A stretch of 56,154 nucleotides of DNA, taken from contig JAJDAG010000097.1 of the NCBI GenBank assembly GCA_029262005.1, positions 1-56,154 on the forward strand. The letters run 5' to 3'. Source of the stretch: Candidatus Zhuqueibacterota bacterium. GTDB lineage: Bacteria; Zhuqueibacterota; Zhuqueibacteria; Oceanimicrobiales; Oceanimicrobiaceae. Below, piece after piece: positions 152-46,921 of the stretch. Position 1 is the stretch's first letter. Each line of letters begins with the position of its first letter. The notes beneath the pieces are model-generated. The model did no database searches, had not been told where the DNA came from, and saw nothing but the letters and a program-made list of their open reading frames with translations. A program made the position numbers and the translations under genes.

Positions 152-2457
152 GAGGTGCCTCCCTCTTTATATTCCAGGGCAGAAAGCACTCTGTCCGGTG
201 TCATGGGCAGCTCTCGAACTCGAGCGCCGGTGGCGTGAAAGACAGCATTGGCAATCGCTGCTGCAGTCGGAACCGTGGCCGGCTCACCAATGCCAATTGC
301 CCCGGTACTGCTTTGTCCGTGGTTAACATCAAGGATGACGGATTCAATTTTCGGGACATCCAGTGAACCGGCGATTTTATATTGCTCCAGATTTGCATTG
401 ACCATGATGCCCGTATTTCTATCCAGAATGCGATCTTCAAACAGCGCATAACTAATTCCCTGGATGATGCCGCCATTGATCTGACTCTCCAGCGTTAGCC
501 GGTCCAACGGGCGACCGCAATCATGCACAGCCACGACGCGTTCGACACGAACCACGCCGGTTTCCGTGTCAACTTCAACTTCGGCGACTTGCACCCCGGC
601 GATGGTGCGCGGCTTGGTTTGAATATGATCTTTGAATCGCTCGCCAACAATCGTGAATTTGTCACCGGGCATCTTCGATGCAACCTGCTTCCAGGTCAGG
701 CTCTTGTTTTTATCCTCTTTTGCAAAAATTCTACCCTCATCAGCCCGCAACTGTTCGGCCGATACCCCCAGGAGCGGCGCCGCGATATCGAACATTCGCA
801 TCCTGGCCCTGTAGGCTGCATCGCGAACAGCCGGCGTGATCCCGGCTGTGGTTTGGCTGCCACCGCTGGCAGGTCCAAACCCCAAATCCGAATCACCAAT
901 GGTCACACGAATGTCTGTGGGTTTCAGTCCGAGTTCTTCGGCAACCACCATGGCAATGATGGTTGTTATACCGCCACCGATGTCCTGCACGCCATTGGTT
1001 GGCTCTACAGAACCATCGCTGTTCACCTGTATGCTAGCCTGGAATCCCGTGCCGTAAAAATAGTACCAGACAGAATTAGCGACTCCCATGCCTCGTTTGA
1101 TAGGGCCGGAGTCTGCGGCTGGCCTGGAATTCCTTTTCGCCCAATTGGCTTTTGCAGCCGCCAGTTTATATTGTACCTGCCTGATTTCGTTCTTCGACGT
1201 GTTGGTTTTCCGAAACGCCAACGGGTCAATTTTTAGTTTGTAGGCAAGTTCATCTATGGCTTGCTCAAGCGCAAAGGCCCCCTGCGGATGGCCGGGTGCT
1301 CGAAAAGCAGCGCCGGGTCCGGCATTGGTGAAAACATCAGATTCTTCGGAGTAGATGTGCTCGATTTCATAAATATTTCTCGCTGGGCCGGACACACCTG
1401 CGCCTGTTCCCACCCCGGCAGTGCCATAGGCCAGCAGTTTAAGCGCAGTGAGTTTGCCGTCTGAGTTGGCGCCAACTTTTAGTTTTTGTGTGGAATCCGG
1501 CCGGTTGCCAACGCATAAATGTTCCTCTTTCCGATCCAGCATCAACCGAACCGGGGCATTGGCCTGCCGCGCCAGCTTTGCCGCCATCACGCCATAAATA
1601 CCCGCCCCAAACTTAGCGCCAAAACCACCGCCCATGTGTTTTGTCAACACCCGAATTTGGCTTTTGGGCATTTCAAACACCTCGGCTAATTCATCCCGAA
1701 CCGTGAAAGTGCCCTGGGTCGAAGCCCAAACCGTCAGGTGATTCAAATCCTGCCATTGCGCCACAACCCCGTGTGTTTCCATGGCGCTGTGTGTTTGCAC
1801 TTGCGTGCGGTAGGTTGCTTCTACCACAGCGTCAGAGCCGGCCAAGGCGGCATCAACTTTGTCCGGGGCGCCTCCCTTGGGACGAATTTGCGGCCCCCGA
1901 ACATTGCCATTCTGGCCAGCAGTGGCAGCGGCCCCAGGTAAATCTCCTTCTGACTTCTTTTCCTCAACTGCCTGCTCAAAAACCACCGGCGAGTCCGCTC
2001 GCCTGGCTTCGTCGGTTTTGGTGACAAAGGGGCGTTCGCGATACACTACCTCGATCAATTTCAAGGCATCGTCCGCCTGCTGCCGTGTCTCGGCCGCAAC
2101 GGCCAAAATCTCCTGTCCGACAAATCGAACGATCATCGGCAGTTTTTCCTGCACCAGCAGAATCGCCTTGACGCCGGGCGCGCTTTCAGCCTTTGAAATA
2201 TCGATGCTTTTCACAACCGCTGCCGGCTGGGGAGAACGCAGAAATCGCGCGTACAGCATTCCGGGAAGCTGAATGTCGGAACTGAACTTTGCCCGGCCGG
2301 TTGTTTTTTCTTGTCCATCAACCCGGCTAACCCTCCCCCCTATGTACTTGAGCTTGTCGGTTCCATCCCAGGGGCGTGGCGCTTCATCTGGAATTTCAAC
2401 CGTAATTTCTCTTAGATTATCTTGAATACCAACACTTAAATTGACTTGTTTTGACAT
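148..2457 (-). CDS. Xanthine dehydrogenase/aldehyde oxidoreductase, molybdopterin-binding large subunit
   Basis: A 769-residue protein of the xanthine oxidase family. It carries the molybdopterin-contact motif GGGFGAKFG at residues 276-284 and, near the C-terminus, GIGEPATVP (722-730), whose Glu725 is the expected catalytic base of these hydroxylases. Length fits the YagR/PaoC class. It has no signal peptide, but the 2Fe-2S partner just upstream carries a Tat signal, so the assembled enzyme is probably exported as a complex to the periplasm, as known for E. coli PaoABC. Gene order (Fe-S, Mo, FAD) differs from paoABC (Fe-S, FAD, Mo). The upstream sequence CCGGAG lies about 10 nt before the ATG. 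The substrate, probably an aldehyde or a heteroaromatic, cannot be read from the sequence. Confidence 0.92.
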   Translation of the reverse strand: MSKQVNLSVGIQDNLREITVEIPDEAPRPWDGTDKLKYIGGRVSRVDGQEKTTGRAKFSSDIQLPGMLYARFLRSPQPAAVVKSIDISKAESAPGVKAILLVQEKLPMIVRFVGQEILAVAAETRQQADDALKLIEVVYRERPFVTKTDEARRADSPVVFEQAVEEKKSEGDLPGAAATAGQNGNVRGPQIRPKGGAPDKVDAALAGSDAVVEATYRTQVQTHSAMETHGVVAQWQDLNHLTVWASTQGTFTVRDELAEVFEMPKSQIRVLTKHMGGGFGAKFGAGIYGVMAAKLARQANAPVRLMLDRKEEHLCVGNRPDSTQKLKVGANSDGKLTALKLLAYGTAGVGTGAGVSGPARNIYEIEHIYSEESDVFTNAGPGAAFRAPGHPQGAFALEQAIDELAYKLKIDPLAFRKTNTSKNEIRQVQYKLAAAKANWAKRNSRPAADSGPIKRGMGVANSVWYYFYGTGFQASIQVNSDGSVEPTNGVQDIGGGITTIIAMVVAEELGLKPTDIRVTIGDSDLGFGPASGGSQTTAGITPAVRDAAYRARMRMFDIAAPLLGVSAEQLRADEGRIFAKEDKNKSLTWKQVASKMPGDKFTIVGERFKDHIQTKPRTIAGVQVAEVEVDTETGVVRVERVVAVHDCGRPLDRLTLESQINGGIIQGISYALFEDRILDRNTGIMVNANLEQYKIAGSLDVPKIESVILDVNHGQSSTGAIGIGEPATVPTAAAIANAVFHATGARVRELPMTPDRVLSALEYKEGGTS

Positions 2458-2483
2458 GATTTATACTCCGGATTTTTTTTGCA

Positions 2484-3128
2484 TCAGTGCCCATCACGAC
2501 CCGCCGCCAAAACTGCATCGAACACTTTCGGGTAAGTGCCACACCGACAGAGGTTACCACTGGTGGCAACTTTGACTTGTTGCAGCGAAGGATTGGGATT
2601 GCTGTCCAGCAAATTTTTGCAACTCATAATCATGCCTGAAGTACAAAAACCGCACTGCAAACCATCATGCTCAATGAAGGACTCTTGAATTTCATGCAGT
2701 TTCTCTGCCGGACTTAAACCTTCGATTGTCTCGATGGATTGTCCGATTGCATCAAGCGCCAATGTCATGCACGAGGAAACTGTTTTGCCTGCCATAATGA
2801 TCGTACAAGCGCCGCATGCACCGCGGTCACAACCGATTTTTGTCCCTGTCAGGTGCAGTTGGTCGCGCAGCACATCTGCCAGCGTCATGCGCGGCTCAAC
2901 ACTTGTTTGCAACTTTTTACCATTGATTTCCAAAGTAATTGTGACAGCATCCGGCCCGAGAAGCTTACCCTGGGCCAAAGGCGGATTTTGCCGCAATGTG
3001 GAAAGAAACTCAACTCCCGGCGTTGCAACAACCCCAACCGAGGTCACCCCAAGTCCCTTGATAAAATTACGACGAGACATGGCACTTGATTTTCCGCCAG
3101 GCTTCTTCTTGTCCTGAGAATTGCTCAT
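2484..3128 (-). CDS. Tat-exported 2Fe-2S subunit of aldehyde/xanthine dehydrogenase
   Basis: A 214-residue electron-transfer subunit. The start was set at the ATG at 3128 because GAGGAG lies 7 nt upstream; a longer reading frame starts at a TTG that overlaps that ribosome site. Residues 18-24 (SRRNFIK) followed by a hydrophobic stretch form a twin-arginine signal. The plant-type ferredoxin cluster uses Cys100, 105, 108 and 120, and the C-terminal alpha-helical 2Fe-2S domain uses Cys159, 162, 194 and 196 (CGFC and CRCG). All eight ligands are present. It is the first gene of the three-gene operon and defines the enzyme as periplasmic (inference from the Tat signal and the PaoA family). Confidence 0.92.
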   Translation of the reverse strand: MSNSQDKKKPGGKSSAMSRRNFIKGLGVTSVGVVATPGVEFLSTLRQNPPLAQGKLLGPDAVTITLEINGKKLQTSVEPRMTLADVLRDQLHLTGTKIGCDRGACGACTIIMAGKTVSSCMTLALDAIGQSIETIEGLSPAEKLHEIQESFIEHDGLQCGFCTSGMIMSCKNLLDSNPNPSLQQVKVATSGNLCRCGTYPKVFDAVLAAGRDGH

Positions 3129-3510
3129 TCGACATCTCCTCAAATTTGAAATACTGTGTTAACGATCTGCGTGAGGGCCTCGAAGCATCTAGCGCGTGCC
3201 GGGCTTCATCCCGGGACACAGGCGCAGGAGGCGCCAAAGGAATAAAAAAAAGTACCGCTCAAATCCAGCCTAATAATGTAGAAGTACGGAAGGTGTAAGT
3301 TGGCTCGCTGAATCTGAAGCATTCAGGTCAATTATACAAAAGCGATTTATTGCCAAAAAGTCAAGAGGGATATTGAGAAAGCCGCTGTTAATGTTCAGCA
3401 CGACCTTTTTTGAGTGTAGGGCACAGAGGCTGTCGATTAAGCCAAATCTAAATTTTCTAAAATCACAGCATGCTATGGCGAATTTGGCAGTTTTGCGATT
3501 CGTGATATTG
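3129..3510. other. Intergenic region between the molybdoenzyme operon and the fatty-acid cluster
   Basis: No gene with a ribosome site and coding character is visible on either strand. It must contain the promoter of the minus-strand oxidoreductase operon and the end of the fatty-acid operon. A short CCGGG/CCCGG hairpin with a 6-nt loop lies at about 3198-3213, but without a run of T it is not a convincing terminator. Confidence 0.5.
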
Positions 3511-4239
3511 TTACTGCTTACAGGAAATTATCATCCCTTTTTCAATACTGATCGCCCACGCCACCCATTGGCCGTGATGAGATAAACTAATGTCAATGTT
3601 GGCCCTGTGATCATCAAGAAACAAAAAGGGCGGCAGCGTTTTCTTCGAGGACAACGGACGAATAATTTGCAGTCGCATGACATCAATTCCAAGCGCTCCG
3701 GCAATGGCCAGTTTGCAGTTGTGACGCACCAAAGCCGACCAGAGCGACTTGACCGTTTCCATTTCTCTTTTAGAAAAAACAAATCCCAAGGCGTCCCCGG
3801 ACAGCCACTTTTGATTCAACGACGCATCAAACCGTTCAGTACTGGCCTGTTGAAAATATTCGGTCTCGTGCAGACCACAAGAGCCGAATGCGTGTATTTT
3901 ATCTGCATTCACTACAACTTTCAGTTGAATTGCAAACGTCTCAAAACAAACGCGGCCACGTAAAGTACACATGCCGGCAGCCAGATTAGTCAAATCTTCA
4001 AACTCGGTAATAAATTTTTTGTGGGAAAAAACCGGTGGTGAGTCAATTTTCGAAATAATTTTGTAGGCGGTTTCTTTGGCTGCCCACATTATCCAGAGCG
4101 TTTTATCAGGATTGGCTGACTGCAGGATTGCAGCTTTTTCTTCAGGGTGAAAAACGCGATTAACGAACCGCGTGTCTTTTGATTTATTGATGCAAGCGGG
4201 AAGGGTTAGATCAACAACATCATTGCCCACAAGTAGCAA
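3511..4239 (-). CDS. 4'-phosphopantetheinyl transferase (Sfp-type)
   Basis: Residues 5-11 (GNDVVDL) and 52-60 (WAAKETAYK) are the two signature motifs of the phosphopantetheinyl transferase superfamily; the Asp and Glu in them coordinate Mg2+. At about 242 residues it has the pseudo-dimer length of Sfp-type enzymes, not the 120-residue AcpS type. It would activate a carrier protein by adding phosphopantetheine to a serine. The gene overlaps the acyltransferase gene by 20 nt. The start is uncertain: TTG at 4239 is used here, with GTG at 4230 as alternative, and neither has a clear ribosome site, so coupling to the upstream gene is likely. It is the last gene of the cluster, and the ACP three genes upstream is the obvious partner. 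Confidence 0.9.
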   Translation of the reverse strand: MLLVGNDVVDLTLPACINKSKDTRFVNRVFHPEEKAAILQSANPDKTLWIMWAAKETAYKIISKIDSPPVFSHKKFITEFEDLTNLAAGMCTLRGRVCFETFAIQLKVVVNADKIHAFGSCGLHETEYFQQASTERFDASLNQKWLSGDALGFVFSKREMETVKSLWSALVRHNCKLAIAGALGIDVMRLQIIRPLSSKKTLPPFLFLDDHRANIDISLSHHGQWVAWAISIEKGMIISCKQ

Positions 4240-4969
4240 AATATGCTTGTTCCATTAAGGCGAGTTGATTAACAATTTGCTCGGCCACGTCTTTGGTTGC
4301 CCGCAAACCTGCATGCACACTTTCGGGCTTGATCATGGTCATTTCGAGATGAAAACGGGCACCGCGTTTGGGCATACCGCTGTATGTTTCCTGATTATGA
4401 CCGCGCAAATAGATACAAAGGACATGGCAATCTTTTACTTTATTTACCAGACGACCAACACCGTACGAAAAACCTTCAACGTCTACCCGGCCGGTGCGAC
4501 TGCGTCCCCCTTCGGGAAAAACAGTAACCGGATGCCCTTTTCGCAGCAAATACGTAACTTTGTCCAGAGATTTTTTTACTGCCTCTCTGTTTCCCCCTCT
4601 GTCAATAGGCACGCAACTGCCCAGATAACAAAGGGTGCGCAGGAAAAAGTTATTGTAAAAATTCGCTCGCTCTGGTAAATTCCATGAAAAAAACTTAAAT
4701 GAGCGCATATACGTCCAGACAGAAACCAAACTCCAGTTGATAATTGCAGAATCGATTTTGGTCAAGTGGTTAGAGCATACTAGAACCGGGCCTTCAACTG
4801 ACTTTTTGAGTTGCTTGTACTGCTTGCGGATTTGGTGCAATTGCTCAACTTTATAGCGGGCGCCAAAACGCATAATCCCGATTAAAGCACTGCCCCAGAC
4901 TGGAAATGTAATCCAGCCTGCCAAATGCTGAATTCTTAACGAAAGTTTTTCACGAAATCTGATATCCAC
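4220..4969 (-). CDS. 1-acyl-glycerol-3-phosphate acyltransferase-like protein (PlsC family)
   Basis: A 249-residue membrane-associated acyltransferase. The family box I, NHLTKID (67-73, NHx4D with the catalytic His and Asp), and box III, FPEGGRSRTG (151-160), are both present. A hydrophobic segment lies near the N-terminus (about 17-34). The family moves acyl chains from acyl-ACP or acyl-CoA to a hydroxyl acceptor. Placement 20 nt behind the ACP gene and overlapping the phosphopantetheinyl transferase suggests that it offloads the product of this cluster from the dedicated ACP, but the acceptor is unknown. It is shorter and more divergent than housekeeping PlsC would need to be, so a specialised role is plausible. 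Confidence 0.88.
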   Translation of the reverse strand: MDIRFREKLSLRIQHLAGWITFPVWGSALIGIMRFGARYKVEQLHQIRKQYKQLKKSVEGPVLVCSNHLTKIDSAIINWSLVSVWTYMRSFKFFSWNLPERANFYNNFFLRTLCYLGSCVPIDRGGNREAVKKSLDKVTYLLRKGHPVTVFPEGGRSRTGRVDVEGFSYGVGRLVNKVKDCHVLCIYLRGHNQETYSGMPKRGARFHLEMTMIKPESVHAGLRATKDVAEQIVNQLALMEQAYFATCGQ

Positions 4970-4989: not shown

Positions 4990-5235
4990 TTATAATTTGG
5001 ACACAATTAATTTGACGCCATCACCGACCGTAATAACGCTATCGGCATCATCGTCGTCAACCTCAATATCAAAAACATCCTCGAAATCAAGAACGATATC
5101 AACGAGTCTAGCCGAGTTGATTTTAAGGTCATCCAGTATCGATGTTTCCATGTTGATTTTATCGGCAGGCAAGTCAGACTTGCTATATTTTGAGAGAATT
5201 TCTACTACTTTTCCAAAAACTTCATCTTGTGTCAT
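4990..5235 (-). CDS. Acyl carrier protein with altered attachment motif
   Basis: An 81-residue acidic helical protein that aligns with AcpP around the attachment site and the following acidic helices (FDIEVDDDDADS). The start is the ATG at 5235 with GAGG 5 nt upstream; an in-frame extension further upstream is AT-rich and unlikely to be coding. The usual Asp-Ser-Leu motif is replaced by Asn-Ser-Ala (INSARLV), keeping the serine that takes phosphopantetheine. Together with the adjacent synthase and transferase this marks it as a specialised carrier, not the housekeeping AcpP. It lies 90 nt downstream of the ketosynthase gene and 20 nt upstream of the acyltransferase. Confidence 0.88.
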   Translation of the reverse strand: MTQDEVFGKVVEILSKYSKSDLPADKINMETSILDDLKINSARLVDIVLDFEDVFDIEVDDDDADSVITVGDGVKLIVSKL

Positions 5236-5325
5236 GTGCGCCTCAGTAATTTTTGCCCTCAATGAATGCGATTCATTTAATGTAAAACATAACAAAAAAA
5301 AAATCAATAACCAACAATTCTTTTT

Positions 5326-6603
5326 TTATCCACGCCACTTTTTTATCAGCAAACAGGCATTTACATCGCCAAATCCAAAGCTTGCCTTAGCGAGTATGTC
5401 CAGTTCAGATGTTTCGCGCGTCTTTTGTACAATGCTGGCCGCGTAAGGTTGCAGCTTCTCATGTAAGTCCTCACAATTTACTGACCCGTGCACAAACCCT
5501 TTATAAACCTGTAAAACACAAGCGACCATTTCCAAACCACCGGCAGCTCCCAGACCGTGTCCAACCAACGATTTGGTGGCATTGGTCAGAGGGAATTTAT
5601 CAATTGAAACATCCAATGCTTTCTGCCAGTTATTGAATTCGTAGGGGTCTGCAAACGTGGCTGTCAAGTGGCCGTTGACGGCATCCACATCGTTGCCGTT
5701 GATACCGGACTCCCTGAGCGCGTCACGAATACAGCGCTGAACACTGGTTGGATTAGGCGCTGTCATACTGCCGCCCATTCGATGTCCACCGCAATTTATC
5801 GCACCGCCCAAAATCTCAGCATAAATTCGTGCATTTCGCTCCAGAGCACTTTCAAGGCTTTCCAGCATAAGCACTCCGGCGCCTGAGCCAGGAATAAATC
5901 CGGCAGCGCTGGCACTCATCGGCCGCGAGGCTTTTTCAGGAGCATCATTGAAATTCCGATTCAAAACGCGCATGGCATCAAATCCGGCCCAAGTGTACTG
6001 AGATGCTGCCTCGCTGCCACCTGCTAACATCCGTTTCGCCCGACCACTTTGAATGCGGTACATGGCTTCAATGATGGCTTCAGTGCCTGTGCTACAGGCG
6101 CAGCTATTGGTGGTAACCTGATTGCCAAGCGCCAGCAAACCGGCTATTTTAGCTGAAATACCACTGCCCATCACCTGCTCAACAATGGTGCTGCCCAGAC
6201 GCCGACTCTTGCCGCTGTCGGTCAGTGGAACCAACCGCTCGCCGGTGGTGTCCATACCGCCAATGCCCGTCCCGACAATGGCGCCCGTATCCCAAAACAC
6301 CTCATCTGAGTCTTCAGCAGGCACTTCAAATCCGGCATCCACCCAGGCATCGATGGCTGCAATGCCGGCAAATTTGATATTGGAATTCATGGCCATCAGT
6401 TGCTCTTCCGTGAAATATTTCTGGCTCAATCCATCCACATTTTCCGGCACACCTGCCACACGGCAACCAAATTTCAATTCCTCTAGTAATGGCTGAAAGC
6501 GAATGCCGCTTGTCCCGTTTCTTAGCGCAGTTTCATACGCATCCAGACCGTGACCATTCGGGGCAATAATACCCATGCCCGTGACTACAATTCTTCTGCT
6601 CAT
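5326..6603 (-). CDS. Beta-ketoacyl-ACP synthase (FabF/FabB-like)
   Basis: A 425-residue thiolase-fold condensing enzyme. The catalytic Cys170 lies in SCACSTG; His312 lies in an unusual GHLTATFADP motif in place of the common HGTST; Lys344 and His349 lie in NATKSLVGHGLGAAGG. The Cys-His-His triad is therefore intact and elongation activity is expected. The gene overlaps the FabZ-like gene by 4 nt (ATGA at 6600-6603), indicating coupled translation. The departure from HGTST resembles ketosynthases of specialised fatty-acid or polyene clusters more than housekeeping FabF (inference). Confidence 0.92.
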   Translation of the reverse strand: MSRRIVVTGMGIIAPNGHGLDAYETALRNGTSGIRFQPLLEELKFGCRVAGVPENVDGLSQKYFTEEQLMAMNSNIKFAGIAAIDAWVDAGFEVPAEDSDEVFWDTGAIVGTGIGGMDTTGERLVPLTDSGKSRRLGSTIVEQVMGSGISAKIAGLLALGNQVTTNSCACSTGTEAIIEAMYRIQSGRAKRMLAGGSEAASQYTWAGFDAMRVLNRNFNDAPEKASRPMSASAAGFIPGSGAGVLMLESLESALERNARIYAEILGGAINCGGHRMGGSMTAPNPTSVQRCIRDALRESGINGNDVDAVNGHLTATFADPYEFNNWQKALDVSIDKFPLTNATKSLVGHGLGAAGGLEMVACVLQVYKGFVHGSVNCEDLHEKLQPYAASIVQKTRETSELDILAKASFGFGDVNACLLIKKWRG

Positions 6604-7049
6604 TTTTCTTTTACTCCGATTCCTGCGATAGTGCCACTACAAACAACCGTGCCATCATCAAGTTTCATTTCAGCCGATACTTTAAGCTTCAGCCGCCGAA
6701 AATATACTTTTTTTGCGGTGATCGTCACCCGATCTCCCGGACGAACCATGCCGGAAAATTCAACCTCGGCATCAGTAAAAACCGTTAGCGTCTTTTGCAG
6801 TTCTTCAACAGACATTTGCGACGAGGCGAGATAAATACCAAATGCAACCACACCGGTTTGCGCCAAAGTTTCCAACAAAATAACCCCGGGTGTTATCGGG
6901 TTTCCGGGAAAATGCCCGGCATAAAAGCTCTCGTCATTTTTGAATGTGTACGTGGCAACAATTCCCTCTTCGCTTAATTCTGTAATATCATCGATAAAAC
7001 GAAACGGCGCTTGTTGCGGCACAAATTCTAAAATTTCTTCTTTTGTCAT
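6600..7049 (-). CDS. FabZ-type 3-hydroxyacyl-ACP dehydratase
   Basis: A 149-residue hotdog-fold protein. The active-site helix region GHFPGNPITPGVILLE gives the catalytic His46 and Glu60 pair of FabZ. Length is standard for FabZ. It would dehydrate 3-hydroxyacyl-ACP to the trans-2-enoyl form. It is translationally coupled to the ketosynthase downstream and follows a separate FabA-type gene, so the cluster holds two dehydratases with different catalytic pairs (Glu here, Asp in the FabA type). Confidence 0.9.
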   Translation of the reverse strand: MTKEEILEFVPQQAPFRFIDDITELSEEGIVATYTFKNDESFYAGHFPGNPITPGVILLETLAQTGVVAFGIYLASSQMSVEELQKTLTVFTDAEVEFSGMVRPGDRVTITAKKVYFRRLKLKVSAEMKLDDGTVVCSGTIAGIGVKEK

Positions 7050-7140
7050 TTTTCTGATTCAATAATTTTAGCGTGAGTATTGAACAGCGAAGGCTGTTGA
7101 GTACAAAACTGCTTTCAACTCGCAGTCACTTTGCATCGCG

Positions 7141-7737
7141 TCAGGCTCTGTTCATAATTCCACCAACTGCGTTCTTTGATTTGTTGGGATAATCCGAATA
7201 AGCGATTCCAGTGAAAACGCCAACCTTGGCATCTTTTACAGTATAAATAAGCTCGTTATCCACCAAAACATTGCCATTGCCGACAATGAGAGAAGCCTCG
7301 CCGCCTTGCACCACGGTAAATCGCCTCACCTCAATTTCATAGCGAACAACTTTGTTATGGGGGCGGATTTGACCTTCAAAAGCCACTTCTTTACACCCCA
7401 AAGCACGCCCGAATCCCTTGCTGCCATTACACACGCAATAAAATCCAAGAAGCTGCCAAATCGCATCGACTCCGAGGCAGCCCGGTTGCACCGGATCGCC
7501 ATCAAAATGACACTGAAAAAACCACTCATCGAGTTGAATATCTTTTTCAGCTATCATTCGACCGCGTTTTCCCGCCTTTTCAAGCTCCAGGATGCGGTCT
7601 ACCATGAGAAAAGGCGGAGTTGGCAGTTTTGAAAACTCCTCAGGTGGGTCGATTACCAATTTGCCGTAAGAAAAAGCAAGCAATTCCTGCTTGCTAAAAT
7701 GCGTGCGGTTTAGAAATTCTTCGTAGCTTATTTGCAT
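7141..7737 (-). CDS. FabA-like 3-hydroxydecanoyl-ACP dehydratase/isomerase
   Basis: A 198-residue FabA-family hotdog protein. Residues 75-92 contain the diagnostic CHFDGDPVQPGCLGVDAIW segment with His77 and Asp91, the FabA catalytic pair (Asp, not Glu). PPFLMVDRI at 41-49 is also typical. FabA enzymes dehydrate and some also isomerise trans-2 to cis-3 enoyl chains, opening a route to unsaturated products. Whether this one isomerises cannot be judged. It is slightly longer than E. coli FabA (172 aa), with an extended C-terminus. It lies between the KAS III and FabZ genes with gaps of 72 and 91 nt. Confidence 0.9.
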   Translation of the reverse strand: MQISYEEFLNRTHFSKQELLAFSYGKLVIDPPEEFSKLPTPPFLMVDRILELEKAGKRGRMIAEKDIQLDEWFFQCHFDGDPVQPGCLGVDAIWQLLGFYCVCNGSKGFGRALGCKEVAFEGQIRPHNKVVRYEIEVRRFTVVQGGEASLIVGNGNVLVDNELIYTVKDAKVGVFTGIAYSDYPNKSKNAVGGIMNRA

Positions 7738-7809
7738 ATTAAACCGGCCTCAATATTTAGGTCATTTCCGCGAGTCAAATGGCTAAAATGACCGCCGTGT
7801 CAGCTTCAT

Positions 7810-8799
7810 TCAATCTTCTGCAAACTCAATGGCCATGCTGGACCATGTTAGGCCTGCCCCGACAACAATGAGCGCCAGTTTGTCTCCGGCCTTGAATGAT
7901 TGCCAGTTCTGGCTCAACACAATCGGCGCACCTGCAGCGCCGGTGTTGCCAAACTTATCTACATTATAATAATGTCTGTTTGCACGAATGCCACAACGCT
8001 CAGACACTGATTCCAACATTATTAAATTTGCCTGATGGCCAATAAAAAACAGATTTTCGTTCCGGGATTCATACTGCATTTGGATTTCGCGAAAGCATTT
8101 GACCGTGCGCTTAATCGCAAACGTCTGAACTGTGGCGCCTTCCTGAGAAAAATGCCCCAATCGCGGAATCGTCACTTTGTCCCACCCGCGTGGGCTTGAT
8201 GTCATGGTATGAAAAACCGCTCTTGCACGGGACGGCGCTCGTGTGGAAATAACAGCCGCACTGGTGCCATCACCCCACAAAACAGCGGTGTTTCTATCAT
8301 CGTAGTTGATGGTTCGGGTGTTGTTTTCGGGAGAAACAAGCAGAACAAACTCGGGTAGTGCATCCGGCCGCATTTGGGACAAATAATACATTTGTGCGCC
8401 AAAACTGGAGCAGGCGGAATTCAAATCAAATGCCTGAGCTTCGATGCCAAGCGCGGCGGCAATAGTGCACGCTTCTGCCGGGGTCACCGTGTCCGGGGAA
8501 CAACCGCCGACGATAACCAGGCCGATTTGTTCGGCCTCAATTCCAGCATTTTTCAGAGCTAACTCGGCGGCAAATTTGCCTGTTTCAGCATTGCTGTAGC
8601 ATGAAGCGACAATGGCCTCTCGAGTGTCTTCATTTCTGGTTTCGGCTATGTAATCGAGCGGCAAAACAGTCCGGCGCTCGCGTATACCAACGCGTTCCAA
8701 AATCCACTCGTCGCTGGTGCCGATATCCAGCTCTTCGAGAAACTTGTTATCAATTATATTGTCCGGATGCCAATGCCCGAGACCGTGAATATAAATCAT
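7810..8799 (-). CDS. 3-oxoacyl-ACP synthase III (FabH-like)
   Basis: A 329-residue thiolase-fold initiating condensing enzyme. The catalytic triad is Cys130 (LNSACSSFG), His255 (FIGHQAN) and Asn285 (FGNTGAAG). FabH enzymes join an acyl-CoA starter to malonyl-ACP. Having its own KAS III suggests that the cluster chooses its own starter unit. There is no membrane segment. Starter preference cannot be predicted reliably. The neighbours are the enoyl-reductase-like gene 145 nt upstream and the fabA-like gene 72 nt downstream. Confidence 0.9.
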   Translation of the reverse strand: MIYIHGLGHWHPDNIIDNKFLEELDIGTSDEWILERVGIRERRTVLPLDYIAETRNEDTREAIVASCYSNAETGKFAAELALKNAGIEAEQIGLVIVGGCSPDTVTPAEACTIAAALGIEAQAFDLNSACSSFGAQMYYLSQMRPDALPEFVLLVSPENNTRTINYDDRNTAVLWGDGTSAAVISTRAPSRARAVFHTMTSSPRGWDKVTIPRLGHFSQEGATVQTFAIKRTVKCFREIQMQYESRNENLFFIGHQANLIMLESVSERCGIRANRHYYNVDKFGNTGAAGAPIVLSQNWQSFKAGDKLALIVVGAGLTWSSMAIEFAED

Positions 8800-35506: not shown

Positions 35507-35756
35507 CAACATTTCAGCACAAATATTGGGCAAGCGCAGAGAAATAAGAACTGGTTCAACAGACATACTCGATATTTGCTCGCACATCAGCAGTCCGCCA
35601 CCACAATTATGTACTCCCGGTAACAAATCAGCACCCCTGGAACAAACATACTCTTCAGGTGCTCCCACATCAGCAGTCCTCCATCACAATTATGTACCCC
35701 CGGTAACAAATCAGCACCCCTGGAACAAACATACTCTTCAGGTGCGCCCACATCAG
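35507..35756. repeat. 83-bp tandem repeat, three copies
   Basis: Two nearly identical 83-nt units (35591-35673 and 35674-35756) differ at only a handful of sites. A degenerate 84-nt unit lies just to the left (35507-35590) and shares the CATACTC and CACATCAG landmarks. The array sits 235 nt upstream of the decarboxylase start. The units contain no matching palindrome and are not separated by spacers, so this is a minisatellite rather than a CRISPR. Confidence 0.85.
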
Positions 35757-35991
35757 CTTTGGTTCAACACAAATAGGCTTCTCCGGCGTTTTGTACGGAT
35801 AACCTCCGGCGCAAATCACCGGCCTGGTTACTTGATTAAGCCAAAGTCCCGGCCAACTCTCCATCCATTTACATTTGTGCAGCAATTTTCTCCTCGTTGC
35901 CTTTTGCCTTTTTCCTTTTCACTTTTTCCTTTGTAGTTTGTACTTTGCGCAACACGCCCACATAAAAATTGATGCCGGAGGAAACAAGTCA

Positions 35992-37503: not shown

Positions 37504-40491
37504 TCAAAGCTCAAAATCGAAACCAGCCACCCACCTGAATCGAAGCGAATTTTCACCGGGCAACGGCCTGTTCAGCCAGAGGGGGAAGTCCAATCTCAAT
37601 GCCAGGTTGCGGCCACCGGTAAACAGGGTGTACCAATCATCCGGTAGCCGTTTTTGCAAACGAAAACCAACACCGGCATCGGCAAACAAATCTGCGTCAG
37701 CGTTGGCGAACCCAACGGACGCAACATCAAAAAATGCAACCACTGTTGTCATGCCAAAGCGTTGCAGCGACCGTAAAACAGGCATTCGTTTGCGAAGTTC
37801 GAGATTCAACGCCCAGACTCGATCACCTGCGATTGGGTTATTATAATAACCCCGAACATTGCCACCGCCCGGCTGGTGGTAGTGGAACTTTTCCGGTAAG
37901 GCACCGGCGCTGCGCAAAAAGAACCGCTTGAAACGGGCCCGGGGATTGGCGCCGTCCACGTAGATCATTTCCTGACTTGGTGCGTCCGCGCCATCACTGA
38001 TTCCCTTTGCAAAAATTCGTGCAAAGAGGCCCACAACACGACTCGGCGCCCAAAACTTGATTTCTGAAAACAAACTGTTATAAGAATAATCGCTGGCCCA
38101 ATCCTGTTGCGCCATATCCAGCCCAAGGGTGATGCTGGTAAACCAATGCATGCCCCGCGGGTTGACGTTATAACGAGCATACAATTTATTTACAGAGCCC
38201 TCATCCCAGGTAGAAATCCGCCCTGTGGAAAATTCACGCATGGTGTAGGCGGAATTAAGCAGTCTGGTATGATTGAACCCAACCCAAATGCGATGCTCGG
38301 TACCTCCTCTTAGATATTTGCTTTTCACAAAACGCAAATGCACATCAATTTCCTGACGGCCCTCCATTTTTGCTGCCAGGAGGTAGCCGCGAGTACGGTT
38401 TCCCAACGCCTTCACCGGGTTTGAATAGCGAAAACGAACATCCAATTCCTTGGAACCGGTGCCATACCAGAGTCCGAGCTCGGTATTACGGTATATTCCC
38501 AATCTGCTCCTCAATCTGCCGCCGATCCTTAGATCGTCCACGCTGTTGTACCACCCGCTCGGTCGCCAGGTGGTAATATATTCATCGCGAGACAAAAAAG
38601 TCATCCCGGGATATTCAAAGCCAAATCGCGTGCCAAGTTTGCCGTTATCATTGCGCCGACTTTCCAGAATCTTGTCGTCCGGGTCCAGCATGACATTTTC
38701 AGGCTTCGATTCCGTGTTAAATAAAACTTTTCCAATCCGCTCAAGCCCTCCCAGGCGTTGTCGCTTTTGCTCGCCGTCAGCAGTGGTCACTTGCACCTCA
38801 ACCGGCATAACGCCTTCTGCTTTTTTAAGCACGGTCACCTCGGTACGCCACCCACCATTTGCCGCCTCTGTTTTGGTTTTACCAAGCGCGTAATCTATTT
38901 TTGCCGTGTTCCGTAACCACTGATCAAAAAACCATTTAAGAGACTGCCCGCTTACATCCTCACAAACTTGCCTGAACCTCGCTTCATTGACATGTTTGAA
39001 CTGCCACCGTCTAAAGTATTCTTTACAAATAAGTGCAAAAGTTGAATCGCCGACAACATAACCAAGCATGTCAAAAAAGAAAGCACCCTTGTCATAAACA
39101 TTGCGATAATAGCTGCCGGGCTCATTGTAGTGATGCGCAATTTGCCCCAACGGTTCGTCATGGCCTGATTGCATAAACCCAAGCAAAGCGTCACGCGTAC
39201 GAGCACGCTCTGTCTTCATCGGACGATGCTTTTGTAACCAGGTGGACCGCTTGCGCATCAAATCCCGGTTAAACCCCCAGTGTCCGTATTCCGCCTCCAT
39301 GTACTGACGTGTTTGAAAATCGGTGAACCCTTCGTCAAGCCAGGGCTCTTTCCACTCATTATTTGCAAGAATGCCGTAAAAATAAATATGGCCTACTTCG
39401 TGCAGGATAATGCTCTCGCGACTGGTGCTGTTCATAACCAGCATCGGATATTCCATGCCGCCACCCAGCAGGCCGTGGGTCACACTCAATTGAGGATACG
39501 GATAGCGTCCAAATTTCTCTGACAGCCAGGCCAGTGCTTTTGCCGCCCTCCTGCTGACTACTTTGCTCCAACGCCATTTCGCCTTTGAACGATACAGAAC
39601 ATGAATGGGAATGCCGTCCCATTCACCCTGTTCGTACAAAAAATCAGGACTGGTAACCCAGGCAAAATCGTGCACATTTTCTGCATGAAATGTAACCGAA
39701 CGCTGCGCACCTTCGCCGGCTTTCTCACGCAAATTTTCTTGAATTTCTTTATGCCTTTTCGGCCAGTCCTTGCGGGATATTGCCGTATCAACCAACACCG
39801 ATTGCCAGCCGGGATCACCGGCACTAACTGCTCCCGTTGCACCAATGATATATTCGAATGGGGTATGAATGGTGATATCAAACGTACCAAACTCACCATA
39901 AAATTCTCCTAAATAATGAAACGGCCTGGCATGCCAGCCGTTTTCATCGTAAACGCAAACCTTGGGGTACCACTGCGCCATATCATATTGAAAACCACGA
40001 TAACCCGACCGCCTGACGTGTTTTCTTATTTTGTTTCGGAATGAAAGGCTGATAGTCAATTTCCCTGCCGGAGGCAATGGTTGTGGCAGTGTCGCTTCGA
40101 GAATGGTGTCCCTGATTTCAAAATCCGTGTGCTCTGTTCCTGCCGGAAGATTGGCCTCGGGGTAAGTGATGGCAAAAGACTCAATTTCGATAAACCCACC
40201 ATCCTGCGGCGACGAAATGATTTTCTGAAAAAAACGCCTGGCTTCTGTTACGTAAACTGTGTGTTCATCTTTGTAAGCGTTTGGGTACAAATGCATGAAA
40301 ATCTGCTGCAAAGTATCCGGTGAATTATTGGTATATTCAATGCTTGCTTCAGCGACGATACTGTGTTCAATGGGAAGGAGGGTGACATCCATAGTGTAGT
40401 GCACAAATTGTTGCCAGTATTCTTCTTGAGAGACAGAGTCTGTGCTGAAAAGGAATATAAATACCACGGTGAGTAGCTGGGTGACGCGCAT
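37504..40491 (-). CDS. Gluzincin (M1-like) metallopeptidase fused to an Omp85-like beta-barrel
   Basis: A 995-residue protein. The start is the ATG at 40491 with GGAGG 7 nt upstream; the longer frame to 40626 is unsupported. A signal peptide (to SVSQ) is followed by an M1-type beta domain and a catalytic domain with GGGMEYP (about 339-345) and the zinc site His364, Glu365, His368 and Glu387 (HEVGH, WLDEGFTD; HEx2Hx18E spacing). After about residue 640 come strands of an outer-membrane barrel, including GGGNVRGYYNNP with Arg880, like the VRGY lid-loop motif of Omp85 proteins, and the terminal FDFEL. Architecture parallels patatin-Omp85 fusions. Confidence 0.85.
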   Translation of the reverse strand: MRVTQLLTVVFIFLFSTDSVSQEEYWQQFVHYTMDVTLLPIEHSIVAEASIEYTNNSPDTLQQIFMHLYPNAYKDEHTVYVTEARRFFQKIISSPQDGGFIEIESFAITYPEANLPAGTEHTDFEIRDTILEATLPQPLPPAGKLTISLSFRNKIRKHVRRSGYRGFQYDMAQWYPKVCVYDENGWHARPFHYLGEFYGEFGTFDITIHTPFEYIIGATGAVSAGDPGWQSVLVDTAISRKDWPKRHKEIQENLREKAGEGAQRSVTFHAENVHDFAWVTSPDFLYEQGEWDGIPIHVLYRSKAKWRWSKVVSRRAAKALAWLSEKFGRYPYPQLSVTHGLLGGGMEYPMLVMNSTSRESIILHEVGHIYFYGILANNEWKEPWLDEGFTDFQTRQYMEAEYGHWGFNRDLMRKRSTWLQKHRPMKTERARTRDALLGFMQSGHDEPLGQIAHHYNEPGSYYRNVYDKGAFFFDMLGYVVGDSTFALICKEYFRRWQFKHVNEARFRQVCEDVSGQSLKWFFDQWLRNTAKIDYALGKTKTEAANGGWRTEVTVLKKAEGVMPVEVQVTTADGEQKRQRLGGLERIGKVLFNTESKPENVMLDPDDKILESRRNDNGKLGTRFGFEYPGMTFLSRDEYITTWRPSGWYNSVDDLRIGGRLRSRLGIYRNTELGLWYGTGSKELDVRFRYSNPVKALGNRTRGYLLAAKMEGRQEIDVHLRFVKSKYLRGGTEHRIWVGFNHTRLLNSAYTMREFSTGRISTWDEGSVNKLYARYNVNPRGMHWFTSITLGLDMAQQDWASDYSYNSLFSEIKFWAPSRVVGLFARIFAKGISDGADAPSQEMIYVDGANPRARFKRFFLRSAGALPEKFHYHQPGGGNVRGYYNNPIAGDRVWALNLELRKRMPVLRSLQRFGMTTVVAFFDVASVGFANADADLFADAGVGFRLQKRLPDDWYTLFTGGRNLALRLDFPLWLNRPLPGENSLRFRWVAGFDFEL

Positions 40492-40574
40492 GCAGATGCC
40501 TCCGGAGGTTAAGGGAAATACGGCTAAAGTGATTGGTTTGCAGCAGACATAATTATTCAAACTGGAATAGATGG

Positions 40575-43303: not shown

Positions 43304-44596
43304 TCATCTGGCTCTTGTCTTTTTGATATGAATATCCCCATCCGTAGTTGACAGCTCAATTAGATCACCACCACCATTTATTACGCCTTCTGCTGTAATG
43401 TAGCGTTTTGTGCGCCGCCGTGATTCCGGCACTTTGTCCTCAGTTTCCTCTGTGCTTGTAAGCGGAAAGTCAGAATAGATATTATAATCATTCCAACGAC
43501 TGTCCAACCTGATTTCAGCGCGAATTCGTGCAGGGATTTGTTCAGGCAAATAGAGTATAATTTCACCTCCTGCAGTACGCAAATCCACCCCGTGCTCCTG
43601 TGAAAAATCGGTCAAAGTGATCTCTACTTCAATGTCCCCACCTGCGGTTTTACCTCTGACGCCGCCACGAACATCTTTCAGTTCTATGGAGCCGCCCGAC
43701 GTGGCAACACTTGCACTGCCCTTTACACCTGTGCCTTCGATATCGCCGCCAGAGGTGGATGCATCTAATGAACCTCCTACTTCGCTAAAACCAATATCCC
43801 CGCCTGAAGTATGCACTTTGACATTGCCGCTCACCCTTTTCAAGTCAATATCCCCACCCGAGGTATGCGCATCAATCGTTCCCTGCACATCTTGAATTCC
43901 AATGCTCCCACCAGAGGTGTGCAATTCAGCACTGGCCTTTGCACGCTCAAGTACAATATCGCCACCAGAGGTTTTGGCGGCTAATTCCCCCCCGATGTCA
44001 GACAGGTTCAGGTTCCCGCCTGAGGTTTTGAGAATTGCCTGACTGCTACAGCTCTCGAGTTCAATGTCACCACCCGAAGTTTTGGCGTTGAGTTTTCCAC
44101 CAATTTTTTTCAGCAAAATATCGCCGCCTGAAGTATGCAAATCGACATCTCCATTCACATCCGTCACACTTAATTCACCACCCCGAGTCTGAACGTCAAC
44201 ACTGAATGACTTTGGCACATTCACCGAAAAATCGCTTTTTATCCAATCGCGGCGATAATCTTCACCCCTAATTTCTATCACATTGCCATCTTGCCGATAA
44301 CTTGATTTTGCTTTGGCAAGAATTGCTTCGGCCTCTTTTTTTGTAAAGACGTCCATCCTCTTAATTTCCTTCACAAAGACTTCGTTCTTGTCCCACGAGG
44401 TTATTTCAACATCTCCCCGGATTTTAAATATCTGTAAACGACCATCGGCCGAGACTTTAAAACTCCTGGTAATTTCGGCAACAAAGTAACGCCCTGATTT
44501 TCTTATTTCCTGAGCGGCGGAAGCTGTTGCTGTAAAAAAGATTGACGATAGCAACAAAGTTCTAACCGCAATAGAACAAACATGCTTCATTTTCAT
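43304..44596 (-). CDS. DUF4097-like secreted beta-helix protein
   Basis: A 430-residue protein with a signal peptide (to TASAAQE) and about a dozen repeats of a ~19-residue unit of the pattern TSGGDIxLxxVxGxLxAH between residues 130 and 330. This is the stacked beta-helix layout of DUF4097/DUF4098-like putative adhesins. Its start overlaps the anti-sigma stop (ATGA, 44593-44596), so it is translated together with the sigma/anti-sigma pair, a common arrangement in which it is a likely regulon member. GGAGAG precedes the start. Its role is unknown; surface or periplasmic binding is likely. Confidence 0.85.
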   Translation of the reverse strand: MKMKHVCSIAVRTLLLSSIFFTATASAAQEIRKSGRYFVAEITRSFKVSADGRLQIFKIRGDVEITSWDKNEVFVKEIKRMDVFTKKEAEAILAKAKSSYRQDGNVIEIRGEDYRRDWIKSDFSVNVPKSFSVDVQTRGGELSVTDVNGDVDLHTSGGDILLKKIGGKLNAKTSGGDIELESCSSQAILKTSGGNLNLSDIGGELAAKTSGGDIVLERAKASAELHTSGGSIGIQDVQGTIDAHTSGGDIDLKRVSGNVKVHTSGGDIGFSEVGGSLDASTSGGDIEGTGVKGSASVATSGGSIELKDVRGGVRGKTAGGDIEVEITLTDFSQEHGVDLRTAGGEIILYLPEQIPARIRAEIRLDSRWNDYNIYSDFPLTSTEETEDKVPESRRRTKRYITAEGVINGGGDLIELSTTDGDIHIKKTRAR

Positions 44597-45549
44597 TTTA
44601 TCTCTCCATTTGAATTTTCACTATTTACCTTTTCCCTGCGTTCCAAAACGCGCGATGTCTGTAACCGGACGAACTCGTTCTCATCGGCCCTGGCAGCACT
44701 TTGGAACGCAGAAAATACATCCTCCTGCCGGCTGGCGCTCAAAGCTTCCACTGCTACAATGCGCATGGCAGAATTAGTGTCTTTCAGCAACACTTTGGTA
44801 AAAGCGCGCTGTACATTTTGATTTGCGGGTAACTGTTTCAACGCTTTTGCCGCCCGCAGTCGCACACCGTCTACGGGATCATGTTCCATGGCATAAATGA
44901 GCGCCTGTTGCAGATCGATATCCGAAAATGAATCATGACCTACTGCGCGAACCGCTAAAAGTCGATGCCCCGGATGTGCTTCGCTACGAATGGTGTGCGC
45001 GAGAACACGCCGAATCGAGTCGTCATAAATGCTGCCGCGCAAAACCACATCTTGCATGGATTTGTAGTGCACCGTCACAATACCGGATTGAGGCTCATAC
45101 GCCACCAAATCAACATTTGAGATAGCTGAATCCACATCGCCTGACTCGGCAATCTCAAAACTATCAATTGGTTTCTTCTGATTCTCCGGGATAACATAGC
45201 CTAGAAAAACACCAAGCACAAGCATAACGACAGCCCCTGCAAGTTGCCTCAAAGCAGGAAATCGAAATCCGCTAACCCAACGCTGGAACCAGGATTCCTG
45301 CCAGGCCAGGCGACGTTCCGTTTGCAAACGCCGTCGCAATGCCAACCGTGACTTTTGCAGGAGCAGCCCTGTGGGCTCTGCCATACTTTTTTTCCCTAGC
45401 ATGTCGTGCAAGGAACGATATTCATCCATACGGTTGCGAACGCTTTCTTCCTGCTGCATGAGCGCTTCAAACTCATGTTTCTCTTCATCGTTAAGCTCGT
45501 CGTACAAATAAAGCGTGATGATTTTGTCAAGGTCTTTTGGCATTCTCAT
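44593..45549 (-). CDS. Anti-sigma factor with C-terminal HEAT repeats
   Basis: A 318-residue protein. The first 60 residues (DKIITLYLYDELNDEEKHEFEALMQQ) match the anti-sigma N-terminal helix bundle, here without the zinc His-Cys motif. One membrane helix lies at about 103-121. The outer part has HEAT-like repeats (residues 195-310: ALIYAMEHDPVDGVRLRAAKALKQL, then AMRIVAVEALSAS and EFVRLQTSRVLERR). It begins 21 nt behind the ECF sigma gene and would hold that sigma at the membrane, with the HEAT domain as a periplasmic sensor or protein-binding part. Confidence 0.85.
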   Translation of the reverse strand: MRMPKDLDKIITLYLYDELNDEEKHEFEALMQQEESVRNRMDEYRSLHDMLGKKSMAEPTGLLLQKSRLALRRRLQTERRLAWQESWFQRWVSGFRFPALRQLAGAVVMLVLGVFLGYVIPENQKKPIDSFEIAESGDVDSAISNVDLVAYEPQSGIVTVHYKSMQDVVLRGSIYDDSIRRVLAHTIRSEAHPGHRLLAVRAVGHDSFSDIDLQQALIYAMEHDPVDGVRLRAAKALKQLPANQNVQRAFTKVLLKDTNSAMRIVAVEALSASRQEDVFSAFQSAARADENEFVRLQTSRVLERREKVNSENSNGEIK

Positions 45550-45570
45550 GATGCATCATTCCTTTATTGT

Positions 45571-46152
45571 TCAAGCGCCAGCACGGACGTAGTCACGCAA
45601 GTGATGCTGCATTTTCTGAGTGGCACGAAACAGGCTGTTTTTGATCGTTCCCTCCGAGCAATCCATCATCGCGGCGATTTCTTTTAATTTCTTACCATAA
45701 TAATGTCGCAGCACAAATACCATTTTTTGCTTTGGCGACATGGCTTCCAGACCATATTCAATCTCCTGAGAAAGCTCTTGATTCAACAGCCACTCCTCAG
45801 GGCTTTTTCCCTTGTCCGCAAATGTAAACCGCCAGTTTTCGCTGTCAGCCTCGGGCCCGTTATCCAGAGAAAATAGCTGTGCCCGTTTTTTCTTTTTTAC
45901 AAAATTTATGCAACTGTTGACCACAATCCTGTACAGCCAGGTCGAAAATTCACTTTGAAACCGAAATCTACCTAGACTCTTATACACCCGTAAAAACACC
46001 TCCTGATAAACATCCTCGGTATCCTCTGTATTCCTGACCATGCTGAATGTGAGCTGCATCACTTGCTTGTCATATTTTCGTACAAGCGCTTCAAACGCAG
46101 CGAAATTTCCACGCTGTGCCGCTTCAATATTTGCTTTTTCTTCGGTCGTCAT
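45571..46152 (-). CDS. ECF-family RNA polymerase sigma factor
   Basis: A 193-residue sigma factor. The ATG at 46152 is chosen since it gives the normal ECF length; the frame opens at 46233, but that adds an atypical hydrophobic leader. Region 2 reads FAALEALVRKY-like then DTEDVYQEVFLRVYKSLGRF and STWLYRIVVNSCINFVKKKK; region 4 reads MSPKQKMVFVLRHYYGKKLKEIAAMM with the helix-turn-helix up to SLFRATQKM. Operon order sigma, anti-sigma, DUF4097-like protein implies an envelope-stress or surface regulon. It diverges from the kinase gene at 46256, so the shared promoter region is only about 100 nt. Confidence 0.92.
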   Translation of the reverse strand: MTTEEKANIEAAQRGNFAAFEALVRKYDKQVMQLTFSMVRNTEDTEDVYQEVFLRVYKSLGRFRFQSEFSTWLYRIVVNSCINFVKKKKRAQLFSLDNGPEADSENWRFTFADKGKSPEEWLLNQELSQEIEYGLEAMSPKQKMVFVLRHYYGKKLKEIAAMMDCSEGTIKNSLFRATQKMQHHLRDYVRAGA

Positions 46153-46255
46153 ATTCCAGATCCAATAGGTTAGACCAATATAGGCAAAAATGGTTTGCAA
46201 TTTCAACTGCTCAAAGTCATAAAAATCTTGCATTTTTATTAGGAATTGGCAACTT

Positions 46256-46921
46256 ATGGTTCATATGGCTCACAAAACTGCTGCAAACCTCATCGCTGTT
46301 GCCGGCAACATGGGCGTTGGTAAAACAACGCTTACGGAATTGCTGCACGAACAATATGGTTGGAAGACTTACTTCGAACCGCAGGCAATAAATCCATACA
46401 TTTCAGACTTTTACGAAGAAATGCAGCGCTGGGCATTTCATTCACAAATTTTTTTTCTGACCCAAAGGTTTAAAGACCACATTGCCATTCAACAAAAGGC
46501 TGAAATATGCATTCAGGATCGCACGATTTATGAAGACGCCGAGATATTCGCACAAAATCTATATTTGCGCGGCCTCATGCCGGAACGCGACTATCAATCC
46601 TATACAAGCCTTTATGAGGCCATGGTGCAATCCCTTCGGCGACCCGGACTCATTGTTTATTTGCGAGCAAGTACCTGGACGTTGATCAGTCGCATTCGCA
46701 AACGCGGTCGCGACTATGAACGCAGTGTGGACACTGAATACCTGGCTCAGCTCAACATCAGCTATGAACGCTGGATTAAGCGCATACCTAAAAGCTGGAA
46801 CCTGCTTGTCGTTGAAACGGACAATTTCAACATTAATGAGGATAAGGTTTGGCGGAAAGAAATTTTAGAGGAAATTTCCAAACGGGTGCCTGCTTTTCAG
46901 GCCAGTAATCCACAAAAATAA
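46256..46921 (+). CDS. Deoxynucleoside kinase
   Basis: A 221-residue dNK/dGK-family kinase. The P-loop GNMGVGKTT is at 17-25, the DRT motif (88-90, IQDRTIYEDAEIF) corresponds to the conserved D/E-R-S catalytic segment, and the Arg-rich lid is SRIRKRGRDYE. It phosphorylates deoxynucleosides for salvage. AGGA lies about 12 nt upstream of the ATG at 46256. It is divergent from the ECF sigma gene. An intrinsic terminator follows it at 47024-47084. Confidence 0.9.
   Translation: MVHMAHKTAANLIAVAGNMGVGKTTLTELLHEQYGWKTYFEPQAINPYISDFYEEMQRWAFHSQIFFLTQRFKDHIAIQQKAEICIQDRTIYEDAEIFAQNLYLRGLMPERDYQSYTSLYEAMVQSLRRPGLIVYLRASTWTLISRIRKRGRDYERSVDTEYLAQLNISYERWIKRIPKSWNLLVVETDNFNINEDKVWRKEILEEISKRVPAFQASNPQK

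Follow-up and report, generated by a model that had tools for sequence, protein, structure and literature searches.

The M1-barrel gene and its surroundings

The window, i.e., the whole stretch of 56,154 nucleotides analyzed from contig JAJDAG010000097.1 of a Candidatus Zhuqueibacterota bacterium, contains a gene at positions 37504-40491 that runs on the minus strand from an ATG at 40491-40489 to a stop codon at 37506-37504 (995 codons plus stop) and encodes a product of 995 aa. The initial annotation had placed the gene at the same coordinates; the strand is minus, as it is for all features of the gene described below. A GGAGG resembling a ribosome-binding site can be read from the sequence at 40499-40503, 7 nt before the ATG. 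From N to C terminus, the product consists of a signal peptide, an M1 metallopeptidase, an Ig-like beta domain, and an Omp85-type barrel. The signal peptide, judged by eye, spans residues ~1-21 (40429-40491); it lacks a lipobox Cys, and the N-termini of relatives are equivalent. An Rfam scan gave no matches, and a promoter/terminator scan was uninformative (3 promoter-like sites vs 4.3 expected).

As in the initial annotation, the next gene upstream on the same strand encodes an OPT transporter (PF03169, E = 5.7e-99). For comparison we took 13 regions, 12 to 19.5 kb long, that surround relatives of the M1-barrel gene; at E ≤ 1e-6, no ORF in any of the 13 regions was a homolog of the OPT transporter. 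Nor was any other window neighbor conserved across these regions; weak matches were sporadic, with three to frame 30181, one to frame 45574, and two regions that contain a second M1 gene. We therefore rejected the OPT transporter as a functional partner and do not take its presence as evidence of a peptide-uptake unit; the M1-barrel gene looks like a stand-alone unit.

Two other features of the window were recorded. On the minus strand at 43304-46260, a protein with many TSGGDI-type repeats is followed by a HEAT-repeat protein that begins like an anti-sigma factor, for which frame 45574-46260 might, at a guess, encode the sigma factor. At 35577-35757, upstream of a decarboxylase gene, there is an 83-bp tandem repeat (2.2 copies, 94% matches).

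The M1 metallopeptidase half

A Pfam scan of the 995-aa protein identified only Peptidase_M1 (PF01433; residues 355-525, E = 2e-19) and no patatin-like domain. Based on this match, on profile matches to the PDB, and on structural matches, the M1 N-terminal and catalytic domains extend over residues 25-533 (38893-40419). The zinc site is complete, as had been claimed (HEx2Hx18E): the zinc-binding and catalytic motif HEVGH occupies residues 364-368 (39388-39402) and is preserved in 33 of the 42 full-length relatives, and the third ligand is E387 (39331-39333). The substrate motif GGMEYP, likewise reported earlier, is found at residues 344-349 (39445-39462) in the sequence and in the alignment of relatives; it resembles the GXMEN-type motif, with N replaced by Y. 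Y466 (39094-39096), within Y-x-K-G, aligns with the corresponding motif in M1 enzymes of known structure, and we take it to be the transition-state (catalytic) tyrosine of the M1 family. The zinc site, GGMEYP, and this tyrosine are conserved among relatives.

When an M1 profile built from zinc-site-bearing relatives (n = 21) was compared with the PDB, it matched solved M1 enzymes with E-values down to 7.8e-18. AlphaFold2 modeled residues ~280 to 610 with mostly good confidence, and residues 27-641 of the model superposed on aminopeptidases N (Z up to 26.7, rmsd 4.4, 466 aligned residues), so that the M1 fold was recovered; the VIA-align structural comparison of the full-chain model, which covered residues 37-665 only, returned no Omp85 entry, a result without bearing on the barrel. 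We infer metallo-aminopeptidase activity for the M1 unit, and the substrate proposed below is likewise a prediction.

The catalytic domain is followed by an all-beta Ig-like domain of six strands at residues 534-604 (38680-38892; pLDDT mostly 79-95) and by a linker into the barrel at residues 605-644 (38560-38679; pLDDT mostly <50). The Ig-like domain occupies the place where a POTRA domain might be expected. A POTRA assignment for residues 534-604 was rejected: no POTRA family was found among the Pfam matches of 24 family members at E ≤ 0.1, and residues 534-602 are modeled as all-beta.

The Omp85-type barrel half

The initial annotation described the C-terminal ~350 residues as an Omp85-like barrel. 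On its own, the window protein gives only weak signals for this family. PF01103 did not match the 995-aa protein, whether as the full chain or as the barrel, and the NCBIfam model Omp85_fam gave a subthreshold match at residues 875-945 (22 bits vs a cut-off of 200, E = 9.6e-5). We therefore built a barrel profile from 24 full-length relatives; these came from 25 full-length candidates, one of which (L090), with no Met start found, was left out of the alignment. PF01103 was reached by 4 of the 24 at E ≤ 0.1, and a barrel-only Pfam scan yielded weak PF01103 matches in 6 of the 24 barrels at E ≤ 1.

The targets of the barrel profile were 16 Pfam-defined Omp85 C-termini from the same genome, 15 TonB-dependent receptor barrels, 16 reversed Omp85 sequences, and a FadL-like protein from the window; the control family PF13568 had no representative in the genome. 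Every one of the 16 Omp85 sequences scored higher (35.9 to 6.0 bits) than any of the 32 controls (≤5.6 bits), and nine of them reached E ≤ 0.01 (Z = 5000). Profile-profile comparison of the barrel with the own-genome Omp85 alignment gave a match at 98.1% probability (E = 7.2e-14, 282 columns); the TonB barrels reached 0.8% and the reversed Omp85 sequences 0.1%. Against the PDB, the barrel profile matched TamA and BamA weakly but collinearly (E = 0.002-0.28); the top E-value belonged to an MHC class I protein, a chance match caused by a GNLRGY-like string.

Based on the ranking, the profile-profile comparison, the collinear PDB matches, and the four relatives that reach PF01103, we assign residues ~645-995 (37507-38559) to an Omp85-type barrel, and the homology proposed earlier is thus borne out. 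That the region is instead an unrelated beta domain or another type of barrel carrying an RGY triplet is very improbable: PF01103 misses the window protein and the barrel models are of low confidence, but the ranking and profile-profile results with their controls, together with the Omp85_fam match, argue against it. The VRGY motif noticed earlier is the lid-loop motif of Omp85, based on the sequence and on relatives; it lies at residues 879-882 (37846-37857), its arginine is indeed Arg880, and this arginine is present in 38 of the 42 full-length relatives. The chain ends in FRWVAGFDFEL (residues 985-995; 37507-37539), a last strand of the outer-membrane type, as had also been recognized, in which FRW is conserved.

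Structure prediction, which recovered the M1 fold, did not yield a confident barrel: pLDDT was about 24-57 within the full chain and 36.3 for the barrel alone, because the alignment was too shallow (three barrel rows). An alternation scan, its threshold set by eye, counted 16 peaks. A closed barrel of 16 strands, like strand number and topology in general, stays putative, since the barrel models are of low confidence. Judged from its sequence, the protein is a fusion, in one chain, of an aminopeptidase-type zinc enzyme and an Omp85-family outer-membrane barrel, as the initial annotation had suggested and as independent profile tests with controls now support.

Distribution of the fusion and loss of the zinc site

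We identified further M1-Omp85 fusions, as the initial annotation had proposed to seek. In the window's phylum, 39 full-length single-chain rows occurred in 27 of 82 genomes, with at most 10 candidates scored per genome and full length defined as model positions ≤30 to ≥930 of 994. A second set, made up of 42 genomes of search-found loci, held 12 such rows in 10 genomes (four from Kryptonia and two each of Calditrichia type, from Ignavibacteriae, and from Flavobacteriales/Salibacteraceae); none was found in its Acidobacteria, Gemmatimonadetes, Planctomycetota, Aminicenantes, and Aquificota genomes. A third set, 296 genomes sampled from the phylum to which the Hymenobacter genome G099 belongs, with two candidates scored per genome, contributed at least 10 full-length rows in at least 10 genomes, and 18 of 20 loci from this set matched the barrel profile at E ≤ 1e-4 (all except L229 and L231). 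Rows broken at contig ends were excluded from the full-length counts in all three sets. The fusion is therefore no one-off; it is a widespread family that includes members in Calditrichia, Kryptonia, Ignavibacteriae, and Bacteroidota. A scan of viral contigs returned one truncated M1 relative, L238 (IMGVR_UViG_3300002180_000287), which matches in the M1 part and is cut at the contig end; although it comes from a viral collection, the sequence is probably bacterial.

Among 147 relatives, the barrel profile matched 40 genomes at E ≤ 1e-15. Rows that cover at least 300 of the 362 barrel positions number 52, and for 48 of them the open frame is at least 922 aa long, so this type of barrel hardly occurs without the long chain.

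HExxH and the distal E are absent from 9 of the 42 distinct full-length proteins (L091, L092, L095, L153, L158, L159, L160, L162, and L166), whereas the window protein belongs to the zinc-site-intact majority. In a tree of the M1 part, a quick tree with a long-branch warning for the outgroup, these nine paralogs form one clade (SH-aLRT 100) that requires one change. The zinc site was lost once, with the barrel and the full architecture retained, and an intact M1-barrel copy accompanies the zinc-less one in eight of nine genomes (all but G081). Since these relatives lack the zinc site, peptidase activity cannot be the only selected function; since they keep the rest, the architecture would also serve a noncatalytic role in binding or scaffolding, and the existence of the clade speaks for binding being of use by itself.

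Comparison with known M1 and Omp85 proteins

Soluble M1 aminopeptidases such as PepN, the cold-active aminopeptidase 3cia, and LTA4H share the fold, the zinc site, the GXMEN-like motif, and the catalytic Tyr with the window protein. Their C-terminus is a helical domain, or the chain simply stops; in M1-Omp85, by contrast, the Ig-like domain is succeeded by an outer-membrane barrel.

The closest parallel in layout is PlpD and the other patatin-Omp85 proteins (once type Vd), in which a signal peptide and an enzyme likewise precede an Omp85-type barrel in one chain; however, PlpD carries a patatin-like lipase and POTRA, whereas M1-Omp85 has an M1 peptidase and no POTRA was found. WD40-Omp85 proteins also place a non-POTRA domain N-terminal to the barrel, but theirs is a beta-propeller, where here it is an enzyme.

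PF00149, which we take to be the calcineurin-like phosphoesterase family, matched none of the 24 M1-barrel members in Pfam. This family defines the 'Metallo' class among the ten Omp85/TpsB subfamilies, including the patatin-like and WD40 ones, of Heinz and Lithgow 2014 (PMC4104836). Based on the parts of that article available to us, 'Metallo' Omp85 proteins likewise have a non-POTRA, so-called metalloprotease domain N-terminal to the barrel; it is PF00149 in their case, whereas in M1-Omp85 the domain is PF01433, and membership in the 2014 class was rejected. In the same parts of the article, the word 'peptidase' is absent from the main text and no M1 fusion was noticed in the subfamily descriptions; 'peptidase' is also absent from the portions available to us of a paper on the Bacteroidota BAM (PMC12611786). 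A literature search, whose coverage is thin for subscription journals and preprints, found no description of an M1-Omp85 fusion. M1-Omp85 is thus most likely a POTRA-less, M1-bearing Omp85 subfamily outside the ten recognized in 2014, as far as PMC4104836 was available.

Predicted location and function

We favor, as reasonably likely, the reading that the protein is a single-chain, outer-membrane-tethered periplasmic metallo-aminopeptidase whose M1 unit faces the periplasm, where it would trim peptides or unfolded N-termini. The signal peptide would export the chain, and BAM would fold the C-terminal Omp85-type barrel into the outer membrane; the M1 enzyme (N-terminal saddle, catalytic domain, and Ig-like beta domain) would stay folded on the periplasmic side and act on peptides or unfolded N-termini near the inner face of the outer membrane. 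In classical M1 enzymes the C-terminal domain is helical; here the barrel would replace it, and POTRA domains would be replaced by the unit of M1 and Ig-like domains. Candidate roles may include peptide scavenging, processing of envelope proteins, and outer-membrane quality control.

The M1 domain probably lies under the outer membrane, in the periplasm, and not at the cell surface, because a domain that precedes an Omp85 barrel is expected there and by homology with PlpD. In the sections of the 2024 study available to us (PMC11116518), the patatin domain of PlpD is reported to be exclusively periplasmic, and its authors regard passage of the folded 31-kDa domain as unfavorable.

One alternative assigns the protein to outer-membrane quality control or assembly: the barrel would act as an Omp85 insertase or chaperone, the M1 unit would trim or clear stalled clients at the barrel, and the zinc-less clade would retain just the binding of clients. 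The lid-loop Arg (38/42), the full architecture kept in the zinc-less clade, and the intact copies that accompany zinc-less ones (8/9 genomes) are in keeping with this; however, no POTRA was found in 24 members, no neighbor is conserved in 13 regions, and M1 enzymes act, as is generally known, on short peptides and N-termini. We regard it as unlikely. Slightly less likely again is a self-contained, POTRA-less Omp85 machine in which the M1 unit would replace the client-binding POTRA and process unfolded OMPs or newly exported N-termini at the mouth of the barrel, with the zinc-less clade as a pure client binder.

The initial annotation had suggested, by analogy with PlpD, a surface-displayed protease: the barrel would carry the M1 domain through the outer membrane in the style of type Vd, and the enzyme would digest external protein. 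The combination of a signal peptide with an Omp85-type barrel in one chain fits this, as does the earlier view, in the parts of PMC4104836 available to us, that PlpD delivers its enzyme to the surface. Because the PlpD enzyme domain resides in the periplasm, the analogy does not support surface display as the default reading; moreover, the M1 unit is about twice the size of the 31-kDa domain whose passage was argued to be unfavorable (both statements on PlpD from PMC11116518, as far as available), and no conserved peptide-uptake neighbor accompanies the gene, with OPT in 0 of 13 regions. We give surface display a still lower probability than the two preceding alternatives.

The periplasmic-tether reading bears on how Omp85 proteins are viewed. 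They have been seen as POTRA-bearing insertases or translocases, and PlpD showed that the barrel can take on a second use, keeping an enzyme at the outer membrane. A version with a peptidase, present across several bacterial groups and including a dead-enzyme clade, would provide a second, independent test of this idea, and the M1-Omp85 family also tests where the N-terminal domains of Omp85 fusions reside.

Other M1 and Omp85 fusions

Other combinations were seen during the searches. In L041, L051, and L053 (Ignavibacteria/Bacteroidetes), M1, an M28 peptidase, and PDZ occur in one chain of ~1125 aa, and in L063 (Aquificota), M1 is joined to a ChaN-like heme-binding domain and PDZ. Three loci of the window's own genome (L105, L111, and L114) encode PD40/WD40-repeat proteins with Omp85-type barrels and are members of 'WD40-Omp85'; hmmscan of the cut frames reports PD40 without PF01103, a family that the genome search does detect, at 28-55 bits. 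In the same genome, locus L215 (G000:C45:1500-9500) carries tandem proteins on the minus strand at 1997-4762 and 5184-8000 (922 and at least 939 aa), each with a C-terminal Omp85 domain (PF01103) after ~700 N-terminal residues without a Pfam match, possibly a further Omp85 fusion.
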